Source: Hysterium pulicare CBS 123377
Lineage: Eukaryota > Ascomycota > Dothideomycetes > Hysteriales > Hysteriaceae
Length of the DNA: 49,397 bases
Assembly (NCBI GenBank): GCA_000467715.1
Contig: AJFK01000232.1
Coordinates: 1-49,397, forward strand
Direction of reading: 5' to 3'
In this document: positions 12,046 through 25,656 of the stretch, in pieces
How positions within the stretch are numbered: the stretch's first letter is position 1
Layout: every line of letters starts with the position of its first letter
Program-made: the position numbers and the translations under genes
Notes under the pieces: generated by a model
Seen by the model: only the letters and a program-made list of their open reading frames with translations
Databases searched by the model: none
What the model was told of the DNA's origin: nothing

Positions 12046-12861
12046 GATGCATTCCTTTCACGAATTAGCTCATTCAAATCCAGTGATCGGGATCCACTTC
12101 TTGGGTCATTGTGACGGACCGAGCTTTCTTTTTCAGGTTTAAAGAGGGTTATCTCGCGATACTCGAAGTCTGCGGATAGTGTTCGAGAAAGACTTCAGTT
12201 TTGAGCATGTTTGTTCCTTTCTAAACAAGGTTTCTTATATAAATATAAGACGTCTACCATGTGAAGTCATTGTGACTGCGAACTACGATTTCCTTAATGT
12301 TAACTCCTTTGCAGAATACTAATTGAGAGTATATATCCTGACATAGGCACTTCAAAAGTAAGCAACCAATATCAAGTGGAGTTCCACTGAATATCGAACC
12401 ATCGGGAGCTTCCAAGCGCTCCACAGATCCGTGCTTGCCAACACTATCTAACCTACATTATGCCCGAAAATAGGGCATTTCGTATCGACTCGAAGCTGGT
12501 GAAAGAACTGTGAAAGTCACCAAATCGCTTGCCTACACACTTCGCATACAGAAAACCACTTTACAATATAGGGGTTAACCTTTCCGGAACTACGAAAGAC
12601 ATACTACTCACCATACTCCCTACACCCCCACTCTTCCTTGTTATCAGCTCCACCACTTCGCTATAGCGGGGTCGCCGCTCGCCTAAGATACCTCCTGCAC
12701 TCTTCTTCTCACCCCACCATTGGCTACTACGGTACGAATTGGAGCAATTCTATCTCTTTGTCTTTCTGCATTCAAAAATCGCATAAAATGCATACTTCTA
12801 CGGTGCAACTGAACTTCCAACCCCAGAAACAGCCAGATTAGGACATACCTTAGTCACCGAA
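12046..12861. other. Intergenic, upstream of the 2OG oxygenase gene
   Basis: No gene recognised. The right part is pyrimidine-rich, as expected of a fungal promoter and 5' leader for the gene starting at 12862. Confidence 0.45.
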
Positions 12862-14488: not shown

Positions 14489-16324
14489 TCAGCATGAGCA
14501 GCTAGAACCCAGTGCACTGAAGGAGTTATTCCCTCGAGAAGGCGGTCGCTGGTCATCATCATCATCTGAGTCGTCAGAGTCAGTATCAGAATCATACAGC
14601 TCAAAGCGGGGCTCAGGGTATGTTCCCTCACCTTGATACTCATCTAACAGTTGATTGGCCTTGGCGTGATCCGGATCCAGCAGGGCCTTCTCGGTATCGG
14701 CTTCATTGTCGGAATCGGAATCAAGATCGATGATTTCATCCTGGCCTGGTGGAAGGGGTACTGTGGCGGCGACCTCGGCGTCATCTTCCTGGTCCTCATC
14801 AGACTCATTCTCGACGTCCTCAGAGTCATCCTCCCATGGACACTTCTTGACGCCAGCGGTATCAGGATACATTTTAATCCAGTCCTTCACAATATTTTTG
14901 CCCTCGCTGCGCAACCAGGATGCATTCATCCCATTCATTGCCGTCTTCATAAGACGACGTGCAATGATGCACTCGGGAGAATAAGCTAATCGTAAGTACT
15001 CTGGATCAACTGCCGCCTCGAAGGTTTGCTTCAGTGTCCGATCAAGCTCGCCCTTTGGAGTAATATTTGCGAGGGTCTCATCCTCCTCGTCACGATCTTC
15101 ACCGTCATCCTCAAGCCAGAGCCACATTGGTGGCGCACAGCTCATAAACTTTGGAGCGAAGACAGCAGAGTCCCAGTCGAGAACGCCAGTGATCTCAAGA
15201 GTAGTCTCATCTTTGATCTCGACGAGGAGGTTTCGGGCTTGGAAGTCGAGATGGCAGAGGTGGAAAACGTCCGTATCAGGAAAGAAGCCCAGGTCTGCAA
15301 TTGCTTCTGCGACAATCATAAGATTATCCCAGGCGGGGTCATCCAGCATAAGTTCACCGTCAACACCCTCGCACTCGTATGCTTTCCAGCGCTTGCACTG
15401 CTCGAGGATCAACTCTAACGTTGTCTGGGGCTTGGAGGGATATGACAGCGATGGATTCCAAGACGGGACGATTCGACTGGGGACACTGAATTTGCTGATT
15501 TGACATGATTCCTTCGACGCATTGACGAGAGCATAGCCCGGGGCTACAACACCAGCACAAGGGCTCGTAGTCTTTTGTAGCTCCATGACGATTTTTGCGA
15601 CTCCTTGTGTCAGAGAGACCATCTGAGCAAGGTTAAGATCCTCGAAAATCTGGGTAAGATTGCTGCCGGGAAGTCGCGCCTGAAGGGAGTAAGGTGACCC
15701 GAGCGGATTGATCTGTGTCATGTCCAGTTTGATGACCTTGGGGATTGGGAGGGAAGTATGGTTGGCAACATATCGGAGCATAGCAATGTCCCACGCAATC
15801 CACTCATTGTCTTCGCTATACCAGCGAGGAATGCGAAGAATGTACTTTGAAGTCTCTTTCATCCACGATTTAGTCGACCTAAAGCCAAAGAGCCATTGGG
15901 AAAGCTCAAGGAACCATCGGGCAGAAAATCGAGCTGGGGATGGAGGCGCGACGGTGACGCCAACGATGCGGTTGAAGCCACCACCTTTGATGTGTTCAAT
16001 GCTGAATGCTTCTGGTAACTCCTCGGGCCAGAGTAGCCGGCAGAGCTGGTCAACACGACTTTGGTAAGTATCAAATGCCTCTTGGCCGTAGGTGACGGTC
16101 GAGGAGCTCTGTATAGACATAGCATCTTCATCATCTGAAGCAGCATCATCATCTTCGGCATCTCCTGGAAGATGTTCCTGGTCGGCTGCTTCATCCTTCG
16201 GAGTTGAGGGAAGGGGAATGTCCTCGGGTTGACCGCCCGGAGACATAGGACCAGTCATCAAAGGATGTTGGTCCGGCGCGATTGCATCCATCGAGGACGG
16301 TAGGGGAGCAGTAAGCCCAGACAT
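14489..16324 (-). CDS. APH-like phosphotransferase with acidic tails (paralogue 1)
   Basis: Single exon, 611 codons from the ATG at 16324. The core matches the phosphotransferase enzyme (APH) family, which has a kinase-like fold: KGGGFNRIVGVTV for the nucleotide loop region, YILRIPRW for strand 3, the catalytic loop HLDFQARNLLV (His358, Asp360, Asn365) and the metal-binding DWDSAVFAP (Asp383 region). Some family members phosphorylate small molecules (choline, aminoglycosides, fructosamine), but fungal copies are numerous and mostly uncharacterised. Both ends are strongly acidic and low in complexity: residues about 40-75 (EDDDAASDDEDAM) and the last about 110 residues, rich in Asp, Ser and Glu (DSDTDSDDSDDDDD). 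The arginine in RIPR replaces the lysine of classical kinases, which is common in APH proteins. It is a clear paralogue of the gene at 20394-21917 and the two enclose two small Cys/His proteins. Confidence 0.85.
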   Translation of the reverse strand: MSGLTAPLPSSMDAIAPDQHPLMTGPMSPGGQPEDIPLPSTPKDEAADQEHLPGDAEDDDAASDDEDAMSIQSSSTVTYGQEAFDTYQSRVDQLCRLLWPEELPEAFSIEHIKGGGFNRIVGVTVAPPSPARFSARWFLELSQWLFGFRSTKSWMKETSKYILRIPRWYSEDNEWIAWDIAMLRYVANHTSLPIPKVIKLDMTQINPLGSPYSLQARLPGSNLTQIFEDLNLAQMVSLTQGVAKIVMELQKTTSPCAGVVAPGYALVNASKESCQISKFSVPSRIVPSWNPSLSYPSKPQTTLELILEQCKRWKAYECEGVDGELMLDDPAWDNLMIVAEAIADLGFFPDTDVFHLCHLDFQARNLLVEIKDETTLEITGVLDWDSAVFAPKFMSCAPPMWLWLEDDGEDRDEEDETLANITPKGELDRTLKQTFEAAVDPEYLRLAYSPECIIARRLMKTAMNGMNASWLRSEGKNIVKDWIKMYPDTAGVKKCPWEDDSEDVENESDEDQEDDAEVAATVPLPPGQDEIIDLDSDSDNEADTEKALLDPDHAKANQLLDEYQGEGTYPEPRFELYDSDTDSDDSDDDDDQRPPSRGNNSFSALGSSCSC

Positions 16325-17832
16325 TGCTGGTATTCACTAATACCTGGAATACTGAAGTAGTTCGTTCGAATGTTTGGGATTGTGCCAGTGGTTGGTGCTT
16401 AGAGGTTAATTGATGAGAAAGTTTTCCTGAAGAAAGAAGAAGATTTGAGGGAACACTCCTAGCTTATATTCTGTTAATTAGAAGAATTTACTTCACGGGT
16501 ACTTCTTTGAATGTTCTGTGCATCTACAATGTCTGCGCGAAGGTGAATCGAAATTTAGTTGAGTGTGTGTACAACGCGTTGTCTCGTTCTCAGGGAAGGT
16601 GAGACAAAGGAAGAGACGTTCCTAACGACGTTCAAGCATATGAGTTCTTTATTTGAAAGAATAACTATCCTTGTTAGCAGGGTTCTTTGTTGGAGTGATT
16701 TCGCATTTCGAAATCTTCGTGAAGGGAAAATCTAAAGGAGAAGGAACTTGAACGTGATAAATAAGGATGCCAAGACTTGCTGACTTAGCAAACCCACCTA
16801 CAACCCCTTCTTGTGAACTCAACGACAAACTCCGACCTTCACTTCATCATCGTTAAACTGCTAGCACGAGTTCTCTTCTACATGTCCCTAGGTGGTTAGA
16901 AAGGCTCAATACGAAAGTCATCGAAGAACAATCTGCTAGTGGGTGATCGTTTGCCCAGCGGCAAGCAAACGAATTCTTTGCGAACAACTTTTTAGCTGAC
17001 TCTCATTGGAGTTCTCCATAGATCTTACCTTTCAATCCATACAGCGAACTGATTAACGTGATTATCTCTTTGCGTTCTGCAAATCCATAAATCAAGTATA
17101 AGACTTCTTCTCCTTTAGACCACAAGGGTTAAACGTACTGAAATTTAAGTAATTTAGACATAAACTGGCGGCGTTGAGGTATTCGAAACCTGATTTCCAT
17201 TTAATATTTGAAATAACGCACTTGAATTTGACGCCAGAAATGACACCCACCCGTTGATTTTATCTTCTCTATGGTCACACATAATCTTGGAAATGCCCTA
17301 AAATCACCTACGACTGATATTTCTCATGAGTATGTATTTACTATTAATCGCTACCTTATGATCGCACTAGTAATTTCATGGGTATTGCCGGTTCTTTCAT
17401 CGAATTCATCGAATTCATCAATGATAGCATTGAAGCCCGCCCTCAACCTACACTCAGATAACAGTACTCACCAATTTCAGAAGAAGTCAACGCTAAGTCC
17501 TTTCCATCGTCCACTTCCTTATTTTCTCACTGCCATCACGTTGTGAATGCGGTTCGCTCATTCCCTGCGAATGCCCCCTATCACTTGACGACGGATATCA
17601 TTGTTTCTTCACAACCTCATTGTTAGAATTCTATATTCACTACTGTTCATTACGATTCACCTTAAGTGGTTCCCCAGAGGTCATATAAAAATCGACATGC
17701 TTTTCCAGTGTCTTTTATTCTGCATCAATCAACTACCACGGCCCCTACCTACATACCACGACTCCACTTCTCCAACGAACCCCTCAAAGCAACCGCAACT
17801 TCAAGAACCTACTTCCCTTCTAAGTTTCCATC
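16325..17832. other. Long intergenic interval between APH-like gene and mini zinc-binding protein gene
   Basis: About 1.5 kb of AT-rich sequence with dense stops. It lies between divergent genes and should contain both promoters. Only a small 9-bp repeat run (17396-17421) stands out. The last 100 bases before 17833 are rich in CCA and CAA, like a 5' leader. Confidence 0.45.
17396..17421. repeat. Short tandem repeat, 9-bp unit, about three copies
   Basis: The unit ttcatcgaa is repeated directly at 17396-17404 and 17405-17413 and partly again from 17414. It lies in non-coding DNA and is probably a replication-slippage microsatellite without function. Confidence 0.75.
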
Positions 17833-18072
17833 ATGCCTCGAATGACGAAGGGTGCAACCACACATCACTGCCCTTTGGATGGTAAAGGCCAGGGCAATTG
17901 TGATGAAGTCGGCGGTTTCTGCAAAGTGCATCAAAAATACTGCCTAGAACATAAGTGGTACGGAACAAAAAACCAAGAGTGCCCGAAGTGCAAGCGGAAG
18001 CGGGAGATGGATGCAAAGCGCGCAAAAGAAGCTGCCGAAGCTGCAGCAAAGGCAAAGCCAAAGAAGAAGTAA
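17833..18072 (+). CDS. Small Cys/His-rich protein, probable zinc binder (copy 1, 79 aa)
   Basis: A complete 79-codon frame from the ATG at 17833. I know no named family for it. Eight candidate metal ligands are present: Cys13, Cys23, Cys30, His33, Cys37, His40, Cys50 and Cys53. The spacing of the last six (C-x2-H-x3-C-x2-H-x9-C-x2-C) is almost identical in the protein at 19159-19383. Both also start with a basic stretch and a TTH(H/Y)CP motif. Such spacing can hold two zinc ions in a RING- or treble-clef-like fold, but that is inference. After residue 53 there is a charged, alanine-rich helix (AKRAKEAAEAAAKAKPKKK) that may bind nucleic acid or act as a nuclear signal. No signal peptide, so it is probably intracellular. 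The codon pattern and the conservation between the copies argue that it is a real gene despite its size. Confidence 0.72.
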   Translation: MPRMTKGATTHHCPLDGKGQGNCDEVGGFCKVHQKYCLEHKWYGTKNQECPKCKRKREMDAKRAKEAAEAAAKAKPKKK

Positions 18073-19158
18073 GCTGGCTAATTCTAGGCTATGCATGATT
18101 AGCATTCCCGTTAGATGCTAGTCAGCGTGCAAAATACAACCAATGGAGCATGGTTTACAACCAATGGTCCTTGATCAGTTGTAGCCTTCCCGCCGGTATT
18201 TTCTTTTCCTCAGGTACATCATCTTATTCTGAGGACGAAACTTGATCGGCAATTCCGTCCATTTCCTTCTGAGTGTACCTACCCATCCCTTCGACGGGCG
18301 TCAATCGACAGTGCACTTATACGACTATCAACAATTCAATCAGGACCCGATCTAACGGCCAACTCTTCAATCGGGTCTAGAGTGATTTATATTCTCACGA
18401 CTTCTGGTTTTGCTCCCTCACACTGAGATTCCGGTATTTTGACATTCGCCTCGCGACATATACCGGGTCAGGACTCCTACGTTTAGTAGTTTGAGTGGGC
18501 TTTGCGATAATCCCCTTTACCTCTGCCCTAATGCCCCTACTTTCATTTACATAGACTGGTCGGTCGGTAGAAACGGATTCTACAACTTACATAAAAAGAA
18601 CAAAAATACAACCCCCACTTTCCCCCAAGATTGTTTTCATAGATGACCAAGTAATATGTGATGAATCCACATTTAGCCCCTGAAAGTCGCATGTCTTTTC
18701 TGAGTTCGTTGGTCGCCTTCGTGACTTGATCACATACGCCGGACCGGATCGGTAATTGGTCTGAGACTGAGTCTACAGGGCCTCATTTCTTTTATAAACC
18801 CGTTTATTGTTTTCCTTTGTGTTTCAGCATAGTCACTAGGATTCACCCAAATCACTCAAATTAAAAGATTTTCAAGGACCTCATTTCACTATCATGGTCA
18901 CGTCGTGCCGCACAAAATGATTCAGGGGTACTAGACATTGAGACAATTCACTGTGCATGTACAAAGTATGACCCTCCGACTACAACGTTCACTACAAGTC
19001 ACACTCAAACTGCTTTCTAGAATGCATAAGGGCTGGCGTATTACGGTATACTCTCCGCACATTCTATCAACCATAGGCCACCTACCAACCTACAACTACT
19101 CTCCACGCTCCATACGCATCAACTAGGACAGAACCGAGCTCGAACCGAAGAATACGAA
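18073..19158. other. Intergenic between the two small Cys/His protein genes
   Basis: About 1.1 kb, AT-rich, with stops in every frame. It lies between two genes transcribed in the same direction. I see no third copy of the Cys/His motif and no repeat linking the two flanks. Confidence 0.45.
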
Positions 19159-19383
19159 ATGGGTAAAATTGGTGTCAAAACTACCCACTACTGCCCGGGT
19201 GCGAAGAACCGTATTGGCTATATCCCCGCCGGCGGCTGCAAGAAGAATTACGCCTCCGGCAACAGCTACTACTGCAAGACTCATCAGGTAGGCTGCCCTG
19301 TTCATACGGACGAATTCCATTTAGCAAATGAGGATTGCCCTAGTTGTGCCACGGTTGCCTATATCGCTAGTATGAAGAAGTAG
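19159..19383 (+). CDS. Small Cys/His-rich protein, probable zinc binder (copy 2, 74 aa)
   Basis: A complete 74-codon frame from the ATG at 19159. It shares with the protein at 17833-18072 the opening KTTHYCP and the eight-ligand pattern: Cys12, Cys27, Cys38, His41, Cys45, His48, Cys59, Cys62, with C-x2-H-x3-C-x2-H-x10-C-x2-C at the end. Differences are a longer loop between the first three cysteines (IPAGGCKKNYASGNSYYC) and the absence of the Lys/Ala helix at the carboxy end, which here is short and ends MKK. Apart from the ligands and a few flanking residues the two are strongly diverged, so the duplication is old or the genes evolve fast. There is no signal peptide. It converges on the second APH-like gene, whose stop is about 1 kb downstream. 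Function unknown. Confidence 0.72.
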   Translation: MGKIGVKTTHYCPGAKNRIGYIPAGGCKKNYASGNSYYCKTHQVGCPVHTDEFHLANEDCPSCATVAYIASMKK

Positions 19384-20393
19384 ACAGCTTCGTTCGGGAC
19401 TTTAGGGGGCTGATCAAGCTGCTGGCTAATCGCTCTTGATTACCCCACAAAAGTTCCTTAATGATAGGCCCGTGTCTATTTCCGGATCGAATATCCTTAT
19501 TTGCTAGGCCTTCAGATGAGCATTACTACATTTGGGTCTCTTCCACACTACTACCTATCCGATTGACGACTCTTAGTTACTAGGGCATAGAATGATGCAT
19601 CTTATTGGGGGGCTGTCAGCTCTCCTCTTCTCTAACATTGGGTGTCTGGCTGCTTCTTTCGCAGCTTTACGTCGGACTCCCATTCACTTTGGTCGAGTCG
19701 GTCCATAGATACCCCCTTCTTCATATACACCGGGCTGATAGACGACGTTCTATCCTTAGAATTTAGAAAATACACAAAAATCCCATTCCCTAAGTTTGAT
19801 GTCTACGCAAACATGAGTGACACCGTGCCATATGATGTGCTTTTTCTGCTAATACAAAGGAACGCTTCCTGAGTGCGCCGTCCAAGCCTGTGTCAGACCT
19901 AGGATGTAACTTGAATATTTAAAGAAGAAGAATGAAATCCTGAAATAAGCAAGTGAAGTTATAGAATGATCGCTAGCCCCCCCTTTTCTCGTTCACAACA
20001 GCATTCTCATGTAGAATCAGTTCTGCGATGCACTTAGAGAAATGGGACACTTAGAGAAAGCTAATTGAAATCATTAGAAGGAGAACTTATTGGCTCTTGT
20101 TATCTATCAGGCACTCGCAATATGCAGCCAGGTGGTCATTGATGAAATCCTATCGCAACGCAAGCTCAGCTCAGCGAAATGCGTTCTTATGCTGTCCATA
20201 TAACATATACAGAAGAAGAAATAAATAGACCAGACTTTGCTAAGGGATTAGCATGGGCAACTAGCGTCTAACGCTCTTAAGGGGTTAGTCTCTCAGGGAG
20301 GCGTGTGCGGCTATTACTCACCCTCTTCATCCGAAAAGTTTCCGTCATCTCCTGGCAGAGGAAACTGAGTAGGATTGTAATTGAAGTCTTCCA
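19384..20393. other. Intergenic between convergent small gene and APH-like gene 2
   Basis: About 1 kb of AT-rich 3' flanking sequence for both neighbours. One 76-codon frame (19642-19872) has no recognisable features. Nothing else seen. Confidence 0.45.
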
Positions 20394-21917
20394 TCATTTC
20401 GTCGGCGGCATCAAAATTGGAGACTCACTGATAGTATCCTCCCCATCGTCAAGATCTAAAACTTCGGAGCCCATAGAATCCCCATCATCTGGTTCGTGCT
20501 CAGAGTCGTACTTCGGATTTGCACCAGGATGCAGTTCTTCCCACTCTTCAATCACCATCTCAGCCTCCCTAAAACGTTTGCTGCTATTCGCGCCATAGAT
20601 TGCCAAATAACACATCGCGCGAGCAAGACGATACTCGGTAGGATAGGCGTATCTGAGCCAATCCTGGCCGACGGCATCCTCGAAGGTACGCTTAACCTCT
20701 TGCATCCCAGGGTCTGTAGGGGTATCGTTGGCTTTAGCTTCATCTTCATCGTCATCGTCTTGCCAATCCCAAAGCCAAGATGGTGGTCGGCAGCCCATGA
20801 ACCGAGGAGCAAAGATGCTGCTGTCCCAGTCTAGGATTGCCTCAAGAGAAGCCGTGTTCTCATCTATCACATTTACCAAGATGTTGCGAGGCTCAAGGTC
20901 CATATGGCACAGGTAATGATTGGGATCATCAAAGAGACCAAGGTCATTCATTGCGACAGCGACGTTCTCGAGACGCTCCCAATGATCCATAAAGCCGCGG
21001 TTCCACTTGACATCAAATTCATGCTGGCGCAGAAATTGAGTTTTGAGGAATTCAAGCGTTGTTTGAGGGATTGCTGGAGACTCTTTAACCACCCAATCGG
21101 GCTCACCATGTCGCCAGTCCCTTGCTAGAACATCAAATCGAATGATTGAGATGTCATCTACATCTTGCAGAAAGGAATCTGAATCGAGGTTGCCAGCGTA
21201 TTCGTATTTGTGTTTCTGCAGTTCTGCCAAAGTGCGACCGTACTGCTGGGCGAGGGAGATTTTCTGTGATGTGTTGAGCTTAGGGTAAGCATGAATAACA
21301 GCCTCGCCAGGCACGCGATACTGAACAGTGTAGCGTTGACCAAGTGCATTATTCGTTGTCGTGTCGTACATTAAAATCTTTGGTATTGGGACTGAAGTGT
21401 GCTTTTCCAGATATCTGACGATGGCAATTTCGTGCTCGAACCATGCCTCCTCGAAACGTGGAATGCGGACGATGAAATCGCCTGGGCCTTGAGTATTAGT
21501 ATCTGCTGATGGTATCGGACAGTCGAACAGCCATTTGAAATAATCTACAATATGTTGGAAGTAATTTTTGGGGATCACCGGCCGATTGATCGCGACACCA
21601 ATGATTCGATTGTAACCGCCACCTTTCATCCAAGTGATTGAGAATGCTTTTGAACTTAAGCCTGGCCAAATATCACAACAAAGCTCAGCGACCTTCTGTT
21701 GGAACGTTTCGAAGGCCTCGTGTTCATAGCGAGTTGTGGACGTGGCAGAAATAATCGATGCGGCCACCTCTGCATCTGTGTCGTCAGGGACTTCATGCTG
21801 TGCAGCCTCTGGGATGTGCCCTTTCGGTTGCTTGGGAGGGAGAGCGTTGGACTCTAAATCGTTTCCAATAAGGTCCTGGACTGTAGCCTGAACCTGACCT
21901 GCAGGTGGCGCAGCCAT
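20394..21917 (-). CDS. APH-like phosphotransferase (paralogue 2)
   Basis: Single exon, 507 codons from the ATG at 21917. The frame is open upstream to 22082, but the first 55 residues of that extension lack any similarity to paralogue 1. The core matches the 14489-16324 protein in order: an amino segment with EHEAFETFQQKVAELC, KGGGYNRIIGVAI, FIVRIPRF, SVPIPKILMYD, the catalytic loop HMDLEPRNILV (His338, Asp340, Asn345) and DWDSSIFAPRFMGC (Asp363 region). PPSWLWDWQDDDDEDE is the acidic insert that follows in both. The carboxy end is also acidic (EHEPDDGDSMGSEVLDLDDG) but shorter than in paralogue 1. Family members transfer phosphate from ATP to small molecules or, less often, proteins; the substrate is unknown. 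Its stop faces the second Cys/His mini protein. Confidence 0.84.
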   Translation of the reverse strand: MAAPPAGQVQATVQDLIGNDLESNALPPKQPKGHIPEAAQHEVPDDTDAEVAASIISATSTTRYEHEAFETFQQKVAELCCDIWPGLSSKAFSITWMKGGGYNRIIGVAINRPVIPKNYFQHIVDYFKWLFDCPIPSADTNTQGPGDFIVRIPRFEEAWFEHEIAIVRYLEKHTSVPIPKILMYDTTTNNALGQRYTVQYRVPGEAVIHAYPKLNTSQKISLAQQYGRTLAELQKHKYEYAGNLDSDSFLQDVDDISIIRFDVLARDWRHGEPDWVVKESPAIPQTTLEFLKTQFLRQHEFDVKWNRGFMDHWERLENVAVAMNDLGLFDDPNHYLCHMDLEPRNILVNVIDENTASLEAILDWDSSIFAPRFMGCRPPSWLWDWQDDDDEDEAKANDTPTDPGMQEVKRTFEDAVGQDWLRYAYPTEYRLARAMCYLAIYGANSSKRFREAEMVIEEWEELHPGANPKYDSEHEPDDGDSMGSEVLDLDDGEDTISESPILMPPTK

Positions 21918-23949
21918 GGAGTCGTGAGGATGTTTGCCGTTCGGAATGACCTGCAAAGCGGTGTTACCAAGCTGGAAAAGCGCGAGATTTGAAGAGTCAC
22001 TTATTTGTGGAAAGCCTGTTCGAGAGATTTGACCACCTGAGAAAATGGAATACTTGACAAGTTGAGCCACGAGAATATACACCTTCTCGCTCTTGCCTTC
22101 ACAATGATATCGTCTACGTAGAGCGCGGTCAACAAATAATTGCTCGTTGCTCAGTACCTACCCAACCAATGACTTGTCAGGGTAGTTTTCCTACCTTCAG
22201 ATCTGAATCGTCATAGTATTGTGAATAAAAACATTCTGAGATGCTTCACGTTGTGGGGGAACCAACCTTGGAAAATAAGGAGGTCGGTTAAGGGGTTTCA
22301 AGAGTGATCGCATGACTAAGCAAGCCTTGATTTTGACTTCATCATCCCTTTGCGCAACTTGCCATGGTCACCAGAACTTATCGACTTACAATCCCCAAAT
22401 CCGCGAACTGAATATTATCGAGGTCGAATGACTGAGAAGCTTTGCGCATTCACATTACCTCTTCCAGAAGTCAGGAGATGTTTACACCTCAGACCTTCAC
22501 ACGCGCGCCGAATTTGTTCCTCTCCCCAATCATAGTGACATTGTGGACTTGCACATGCGCGAAAGAGTTTATGGCCTTTCTTACTATTTACATTCATGAT
22601 TAGTTATGGCAGAATTACAGCCTAGCAAAAGAGAGTCAACCGACTGACATAGCATCTTTCACAACTGTGGGTATGGTGGCGGTATTCACACGACGCGCTA
22701 CAGCTTGCCCAAAAGCCAACCCAACTATGGCAAAGGTGGTGAACACATGTTGCTATGTAACATGAAGACTAACCCAATCATTCATAAGGAGGTCATCAGG
22801 GTATATCAACGTTGACGGACGTTCCACAACACATGATTCATATCCTCATTTAGGCCTAGCCTGTTTGTACATCTTATTTATGTGACGGCTAAGCGACCCC
22901 TCCCAGAACCGATTTACGAAAGTCAGCTGAGTTGATATGCGATTAGGATGATCCGAGGAAGCTAACGCGAACAACCGACCTGGAAACAGTAGAGCAAACA
23001 AAAGCCGTCGTTTTTTCAACCCGATGACCATTTTCAGGTGTCAAGCAAACAGGTGAAGTTCCTCAAAGTCAAGTCAAATAGTTACCCCATGCAATAGCAA
23101 ACAAGGAACTTTGCAATTTTTGACACTCGGAACGATATGGAGATATCGAATCAGCAGTAGATCAGTCCGATTTGGCACCACACCCGAGCAGCGCCTTCCC
23201 GAGCCTCGATGTGACCTATTGAGTATGGCCTCCGGAATCCTGTTTGCTAAACGGCAATATGCATCAAACACGTCAGTTTGGTCCCCACCTTGCAACGAGA
23301 AAGATTATTTCTCATACGTGGCAAAGTACACCCAACTATCAATGCGACTCTTCGAGGTCTATATATGCTCGGGGGTTCAGTGTAGTTTTAAATTCTAATT
23401 ATTCTCAAAACATTCATTCCTTTCCCCCTCAACATCGCTCTTCTCATAATCATTGCATAGCTTCTTTTCCGTCGCCAGAACGCGTGGTTAATCTGGAACT
23501 GCTTACTGGAGACGTCCACAATGACATAAAGCGAACGGGATGACACCTCTTGCCCCTCCTCCCGTAGAAAGGCATTCAGAAGATTGCCACTAGTAGGTGG
23601 ATACTCCGCTCCCCCAGCCTTAGGTCCCCCAACAAGCTCCTAAACCCTCATCATCGGTCGAGCCATGGCTTTCAACGATGAAAACGCTCGCGTTGAGCCC
23701 ATCGAATTCGTGTGAATCGGCTGCAGTTAATTCCTCTAGCCAACCGTTTCAGAGCCCAGGACGCGTGTTAATAACCATGAACTCGCCACGAACCAGATCA
23801 TCGCCAAGGACAACGTGCACATGGAACAACTCCCGGCTTGATGGACCCATCGAGGCCAACCAAGTCTAAGTTCAGACTATTGTAAGTTCGATAAACCTAT
23901 GGAGGATGGATAATGTACTAACAGTTTGATACGTAGCTTATATATAACA
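21918..23949. other. Gene-poor interval of about 2 kb
   Basis: After the APH-like promoter I find only short frames without family features. At 23664 an ATG in good context opens a 16-codon frame (MAFNDENARVEPIEF) that may be the first exon of the membrane-protein gene to the right, but I could not follow it securely through splice sites. No RNA gene or mobile element recognised. Confidence 0.4.
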
Positions 23950-25656
23950 GCCTTTAATCAGCACCGCCATCATCAAGCAGCGCCACTGTTGTTCTACCAA
24001 CCTTCATCGAAGATTTAACCGATAACCTCGCTTCGAACGGCTACGAGAGGCTTTTCGGCATTGATACCCGAGTCAAAGGCAACTGGACGGAACTCACCAT
24101 CGGCAATGCAAGTGTCGTAGTACCTAGTAATGGCAACGAATGGGAAGGAACTTACATTCCTGGTGCGTTTGCTTTTGGTGATGAGAAGCCCGGCTTTAGA
24201 GTCCATGAGAAGCCTGGCACCGATCATAAACATTCCTCCTTATATACACGGACACGTCACGAAGCTGGCCTTCATGTCGACCCAAGAGGTCCATGCTCCT
24301 CGCTGTAACAGCCAAAATCTTGCCTGATATGGGCATCTCCGCCCGGAAGCTGGATGTCAACATGGGATATCACTCTTCATTCGATCAACCCCGCCATTTC
24401 ACAGGTCAAGACATTTATATACCCACGATGAAAACCACCATCCAAGTCGAATATATCTCCCTTCCCCTGGAAATATCCGCTCCTTTCTATATATATAAAA
24501 TCGTTAGTACTCATTCATCTATAAAACCTCCCCTTTACCCACCGGCAAACGCTACAGAACCGGATCCGCACACATGCAGCACTGGATTGCGGGTGTGGCG
24601 CTTGTAATCAAAGAAGCGAAAAGGACGAGTGTTTTTCTGGAGATGTTGGCTCGTTGTACTGATTTCTTCGAGACTGTACCACGCTGCCACCCGCGCCCGG
24701 TGGCAAATGACGGCAAGCTCTGAAGCCACTCTCGCCAACAGATGGAACTAAACTGAACGTTAGCGATTGGGTATGCACACTGGTTCGAGCATTGACCAAA
24801 AGTATGTCAAGAAACCACAACTCATAGATCTTCATGGTCGTCGAAACGGTTTACTGATCAACTTGATGATAACTAGACATGGCACGCTCGAGGAAAAGAC
24901 AACCCAAGAAGGGATCAAGTAAGCAAAGCAGCAAGGCGCCGAACCGAGATGCACCGTCGAAGACCCAACGTCGTCATGGGTAGCCTCAGGCTATAAAAGT
25001 TAGAGCAATATTAACGACACCATCCTTATCCTCTTGGTTTCCGTTTTCGCCGATCATGGGCTCCTGAAACAAGAGGCTGACCGGATTGAGGGTTGCAACA
25101 CCGTCTCTTGGACACAGTATCAAGGACTCTCGGATTGCGCTGCCAACGTCCGGGAGCTTATATATACAGCCGCCACGATCGAAGTTGATCGATATAGGGC
25201 GCACATTTCATGTCTGGGGGACAGCACGAATGAGCTGGTATGCAAACCCTCCTTCGGGTATATTCTCCTTCAGCTAATGTTGTTCAACAGTTCTGGTGGA
25301 TATCATGGATCTGCGTTCTGGTAGTGCAGCTCATTATATACTACAGTGTTGGGTTTACGAAGAACAACTCCCCGACGTCTTCGAAGCAAACACTATGGCA
25401 CGCTTTCGCGGTCATGAATGCGGCCATACTCGCCATCTCGGGAGTGGTCGCGATCATTGGGCTCTTGTTCGCCGGTTATACCACTTTAGTACGCAGTCTT
25501 GAGATTGCGGATACGAAAAGCTCGACGTTCGTGGACATGGAGGTCGAGCATGCTGCCAGTGAAGAGCACGCTAGTGAAGTACTCAGCTTTTCCCGGGGGG
25601 AGGCGATACTGAGAATTGGGTCGCAGTGTGAGAAGATTATGAGGTTCCCTGTATGA
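23950..25656 (+). pseudogene. Fragmented or multi-intron membrane-glycoprotein gene
   Basis: Protein-like stretches follow one another on the plus strand. From about 23980 is LPTFIEDLTDNLASNGYERL, followed by LTIGNASVVVPSNGNEWEGT with NxS/T sites; then KLAFMSTQEVHAPRC near 24260, and, one frame away, GISARKLDVNMGYHSSF near 24330. From 25006 to 25237 a good frame with spaced cysteines (HGLLKQEADRIEGCNTVSW) joins through a clean 53-nt intron (25238-25290, GTATGC...CAACAG) to two transmembrane helices (WWISWICVLVVQLIIYYSVG and AAILAISGVVAIIGLLFAG) and a cytosolic tail ending at 25656. The topology suggests an extracellular domain anchored near its carboxy end. The frame change near 24320 (NSQNL to LPDMG) has no splice signals and fits a one-base insertion. 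The gene is thus either decayed in the middle or contains introns I cannot place. Family unknown. Confidence 0.5.

Follow-up and report, generated by a model that had tools for sequence, protein, structure and literature searches.

The window, that is, the whole stretch of DNA that was analysed (49,397 nt), is contig C184 of a 37.2-Mb, 596-contig draft genome of the fungus Hysterium pulicare CBS 123377. It carries a block of four genes that, together with a third gene pair on contig C464, is best read as a filamentous-fungal module of two genes that has been duplicated, its members being an APH-type kinase and, encoded apart from it, a basic Cys/His mini-protein, the two inherited together. 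This reading is held with about even confidence, and it is drawn from one genome, from one dispersed and one local duplication, and from homology of the small family judged on short sequences. The APH-type partner would be a eukaryotic-like kinase acting on a small molecule or a protein, and the mini-protein, predicted to fold around one or two zinc ions, would most likely be a regulatory or targeting partner (subunit) of that kinase, or its substrate. The basic mini-protein might also dock to the acidic kinase tail, such electrostatic docking being possible on weak grounds. A dedicated small partner, if true, would provide a handle on the role of one fungal APH subfamily, and the mini-protein family would be one that Pfam, NCBIfam and PADLOC do not name. 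No description of this kinase/mini-protein pair was found in the titles and abstract openings of the best-ranked literature matches, drawn from a collection that lacks most subscription journals.

Gene content of the window block

The four genes of the block are as follows.

APH1: 14489-16324, minus strand; 611 aa, PF01636 kinase-like protein with HLDFQARN and LDWDS motifs and acidic N- and C-terminal tails
small1: 17833-18072, plus strand; 79-aa basic Cys/His mini-protein with a lysine-rich tail, H-x-C-x9-C-x6-C-x2-H-x3-C-x12-C-x2-C
small2: 19159-19383, plus strand; 74-aa basic Cys/His mini-protein, H-x-C-x14-C-x11-C-x2-H-x3-C-x13-C-x2-C
APH2: 20394-21917, minus strand; 507 aa from the first ATG, PF01636 protein with HMDLEPRN and LDWDS motifs and an acidic tail

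Location of the ORFs confirmed the arrangement given in the original prediction, in which two minus-strand APH genes enclose two plus-strand small genes, in the order APH1 (-), small1 (+), small2 (+), APH2 (-). APH1 and small1 are head-to-head with ~1.5 kb between them, and small2 and APH2 are tail-to-tail with ~1.0 kb between them. The mechanical ORF of APH2 reaches back to a GTG at 22082, and this longer form was the one used in the Pfam scan. Elsewhere in the window are a fungal transcription factor domain, SLA1 domains and an ORF that we take to be xanthine-dehydrogenase-like; the identified genes around the block are metabolic, transport and regulatory. A 138-aa ORF (25240-25656, plus strand) gave a Bax1-I match below the cut-off (E 0.0011) and is possibly a fragment of a membrane protein.

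Both large proteins belong to PF01636 (APH1 36.7 bits, APH2 54.4 bits, against a gathering score of 23.2) and share 36% identity over 457 aa (E 1e-80), which bears out the paralogy proposed for the two phosphotransferase-like genes. In APH kinases, H-x-D-x4-N is the catalytic motif and D-W-D (DxD) the metal-binding motif. Both are intact in APH1 (HLDFQARN...LDWDS), in APH2 (HMDLEPRN...LDWDS) and in the third kinase, found on C464 (APH3; HLDLAPRN...LDWDS). Since APH1 and APH2 keep the catalytic motifs, they are likely to be active kinases. Their score above the gathering threshold, their HxDxxxxN and DxD motifs and their fungal host agree with the APH/PF01636 family, but they differ in their long acidic tails and in forming, in this genome, a distinct subfamily of three that is accompanied by a small Cys/His gene. 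Among solved structures even the best sequence match is distant (9fsg_A, E 1.7e-4), and a two-protein profile of APH1 and APH2 searched against the PDB returned 9fsg (E 0.0018) and hygromycin-B 4-O-kinase (E 0.04). Scores of the APH proteins against the NCBIfam aminoglycoside kinases were far under the cut-off.

A contrast between acidic large proteins and basic small ones had also been predicted and is real, the net charges being about -66 for APH1 and -41 for APH2 compared with +11 for small1 and +5 for small2. Three other APH-like ORFs, taken by a simple filter from the fetched loci, have lower negative charges (-9.5 to -19.5). The same holds for APH3 in its longer frame (-16.6), although this frame does not reach the real C-terminus and takes in residues past a frame break.

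The relationship between the two small proteins is weak by BLASTP (18/57 identical, E 8e-5), yet their alignment score of 67 (shuffle mean 27) lies above all 5000 shuffles and their Cys/His positions coincide, in agreement with the claim that they too are paralogues. They have in common H-x-C, a linker Cys, C-x2-H-x3-C and C-x2-C, with longer linkers between the Cys/His positions in small2 than in small1; with about eight candidate ligands, two zinc sites could be accommodated. In Pfam, searched to E 1, small2 had no match, and the single family listed for small1 was zf-RING-like (E 0.31, 11.6 bits, cut-off 26.6). The only NCBIfam match was PG0870_Nterm for small1 (E 0.061, 13.5 bits against a cut-off of 50), and PADLOC gave no match to the small proteins. 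In the PDB, a profile of three small sequences (small1, small2 and the C464 copy) had no match and small1 alone matched only a protein kinase C zeta chain (E 0.055). Codon usage proved uninformative as a coding test: among the 81 window ORFs of 60-110 aa, small1 and small2 included, 11 score at least as high as small1 and 31 at least as high as small2. The small ORFs are taken as genes because of their common Cys/His pattern and the third copy on C464.

The third pair and the probable history of duplication

The whole genome was searched at the protein level with small1, small2, APH1 and APH2, each run separately. The small1 search returned itself and a single other place (C464:52253-52384, E 0.007), and the reverse search with the C464 fragment returned small1 (E 0.008) plus a weak place on contig C7 (E 0.19), around which the family Cys/His pattern is absent. 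By its own search small2 has no other relative in the genome, and this result and the weak E-value of the third small member are counted against the module. With APH2 as query, the hits that followed the gene itself and APH1 were pieces at C464:52509-53751 (best E 3.5e-41), every APH match beyond C464 being at E 1e-5 or worse; APH1 as query likewise placed C464 next (best piece E 2.3e-35), with the other APHs at E 5.7e-4 or worse. The genes detected on C464 by these genome protein searches are listed below.

Third small gene: C464:52247-52412, same strand as APH3
APH3, the third subfamily kinase: frames within C464:52473-53862, same strand as the third small gene

The kinase frame runs to its stop at 52473 and the small frame starts at 52412, which puts the two in tandem with 60 bp between them; the chance of a uniformly random position falling within 60 bp is about 3.5e-5. 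Copying of the pair as one unit, as had been proposed, is thus supported, as separate searches brought a third APH gene and a third small gene to the same spot. The third small copy has the identical Cys/His set, and all three pairwise small-protein scores exceed 5000/5000 shuffles, the 50-aa piece past the frame break representing the C464 copy both in these scores and in the three-row alignment. Invariant residues in that alignment include C13, P14, C30, H33, Q34, C37, C50 and C53 (small1 numbering).

A frame break of one base interrupts each of the C464 genes: in the kinase it lies in the acidic loop, and in the small gene between TTH and CP, where it is flanked by the first His and Cys; the C464 pair may be dead or misassembled. 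A comparison of 20 kb of C464 with the window (ORFs of at least 30 aa) gave no further convincing shared flank. The remaining matches were short, with E-values from 8e-7 to 0.007, and all those below 0.003 came from frames antisense to the kinases. Flanking the C464 pair, one on each side and no more than about 10 kb away, are a HET-domain gene (PF06985, E 9.7e-30; C464:44080-45060, minus strand) and NLR-type pieces (C464:59807-62780, minus strand), in which NPHP3_N and DUF7791 score above the cut-off and SesA and NACHT are weak, under it.

Identities across the kinase cores are 39% for APH1-APH2 (116/299), 36% for APH1-APH3 (97/272) and 33% for APH2-APH3 (91/272). A segment of roughly 25 aa is common to APH1 and APH2 and missing from APH3, and the local duplication on C184 is therefore probably later than the split from C464. 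From these sequences, the order of events was probably an ancestral pair, its split into C464 and C184 lineages, and then local duplication at C184. The small genes speak against a simple pair-by-pair history, as the C464 piece is a better match to small1 (score 84) than small2 is (67). The three pairs have three orientations (head-to-head, tail-to-tail and tandem), and the gap between kinase and small gene ranges from 60 bp to about 1500 bp; a shared promoter therefore cannot explain the linkage, and, with each pair in its own orientation, at least some inversion must have occurred without parting the genes. A mobile-element origin of the block was considered and rejected: it contains no direct or inverted repeats of at least 20 bases, and a genome search that skips very common words turned up its two larger spacers nowhere else.

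Distribution of the two families in the genome

In this genome, the three small genes detected accompany the three members of the APH subfamily. APH-family matches at E up to 0.01 number 36, at about 33 distinct places, and four of the 36 rows score under the curated cut-off. The pattern CxxH-x(2-4)-C-x(8-22)-CxxC was absent within ~1.5 kb on each side of 27 other PF01636 loci, representing 24 distinct places; six weaker PF01636 rows were left out of this control. With the pattern at 3/3 subfamily members and 0/24 other APH places, the association is one of a single subfamily and not of APH genes at large. The expectation that small genes lie beside APH-like genes is accordingly upheld for this subfamily, and a general linkage to APH genes is rejected for the 24 places. 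Small homologues scattered apart from APH-like neighbours, an observation that would have counted against the original prediction, were not seen in this genome. One segment (C134:165475-173661) has three APH-family matches in about 8 kb, with no mini-protein of the family pattern nearby.

Across the genome there are 128 places with the CxxHQxxC core and 45 with the reversed pattern, used as a control. A stop is contained in 24 of the 128, and among the other 104 only the three family members show the family pattern. A core at window position 12509 has no later CxxC (window scan). A further 100 were tested for a CxxC 8-20 residues beyond the first core match, 20 with about 500 bases and 80 with 72 bases downstream. 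Two of the 100, on contigs C388 and C174, have such a CxxC, but neither is accepted as a relative, as the HCP part is missing from both and stops lie immediately before them; a loose-pattern match on C454 (L050:1615-1719), lacking the HCP and HQ parts, was also rejected. A wide small family is thus not supported, the excess of CxxHQxxC over the control being other sequence in the stretches tested; members that are diverged, without the HQ core or split by introns would be missed by this census. Among the pattern matches outside the family are two similar stretches on C69 and C104 (CTKHQ[VI]RCDY), presumably part of a Zn2Cys6-type transcription factor.

No relatives were found on viral contigs (queries small1, APH2, the APH pair and the three-row small alignment) or on prokaryote contigs (queries APH2 and the small alignment), an unsurprising outcome if the family is fungal. 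A fungi-specific class named APH3_Fungi is described in PMC4702295, where bacterial enzymes are presented as the only well-characterised members of the APH3 group.

Alternative readings and known fungal systems

The main rival to the module, given that only two genomic locations are involved, is that a short block of two unrelated genes was passively copied, the kinase and the mini-protein not acting together. Neighbours that are duplicated together give linkage without function, the two locations show three differing orientations, the 1.0-1.5 kb spacing in the window is unremarkable, and there is neither a fusion nor a shared promoter. Weighing on the other side is the depth of the divergence: the kinase cores have fallen to 33-39% identity and the mini-proteins are still linked to them with the Cys/His positions kept, and no other flanking gene stayed alongside in the 20 kb compared. 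Passive copying is regarded as a real possibility, at roughly one chance in three.

An unlikely reading is that of a toxin-antidote or allorecognition-like pair, in which one partner, perhaps the basic mini-protein, would be harmful and the kinase would neutralise it, or the reverse. It would account for the tight linkage, the duplication and the joint decay, and it gains from the frame breaks in both C464 partners and from the HET and NLR-type genes near that pair. HET and APH genes also occur together among the strain-specific genes of one Aspergillus oryzae strain, as reported in PMC6237848. A suggestive parallel is Spok, a family of meiotic drivers of filamentous fungi that likewise combine an ELK-type kinase and a Cys/His cluster; as described for Spok3 (PMC6660238), resistance seems to require the ELK-like kinase domain as well as the Cys/His cluster next to it, and some Fusarium homologues are described as toxin plus antidote in yeast (PMC12693581). 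Spok, however, is described as one protein with a nuclease domain, whereas two genes are present here, and neither the PD-(D/E)XK nuclease nor any other toxin domain was seen in APH1, APH2, small1 or small2 (Pfam, E up to 1). Nor does the Cys/His spacing resemble that reported for Spok, in which a C-x3-C-x13-C-x5-H-x7-H cluster precedes the kinase; spacing and order differ, and the residues are on a separate protein. Also against the toxin-antidote reading are the metabolic, transport and regulatory character of the genes identified around the C184 block, the main text of a paper on fungal NLR effector domains (PMC9815663), in which neither APH nor phosphotransferase appears, and the fact that linkage alone does not imply toxicity. 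The specific form in which the zinc mini-protein and the APH kinase would serve in self-recognition or as toxin and antidote, making up an undescribed module that corresponds to the kinase and Cys/His half of Spok divided over two genes and copied around the genome as a unit, is quite unlikely.

The HET-S/NWD2 system is comparable in that two linked fungal genes are involved and their genomic clustering points to a joint function, as argued in PMC3321046. The window pair has no NLR domain match (Pfam), and the resemblance extends only to the type of reasoning.

That the small ORFs are detached kinase domains, an ancestral C-terminal Cys/His segment having become a separate gene, is very unlikely: the C464 small frame does begin 60 bp past the kinase stop on the same strand, but a spliced fusion of the two was rejected when inspection by eye revealed no in-frame GT-AG junction, and the three small ORFs have matching Met starts (MPRMTKGATTH, MGKIGVKTTH and MPKKGASTTH), as expected of separate genes.
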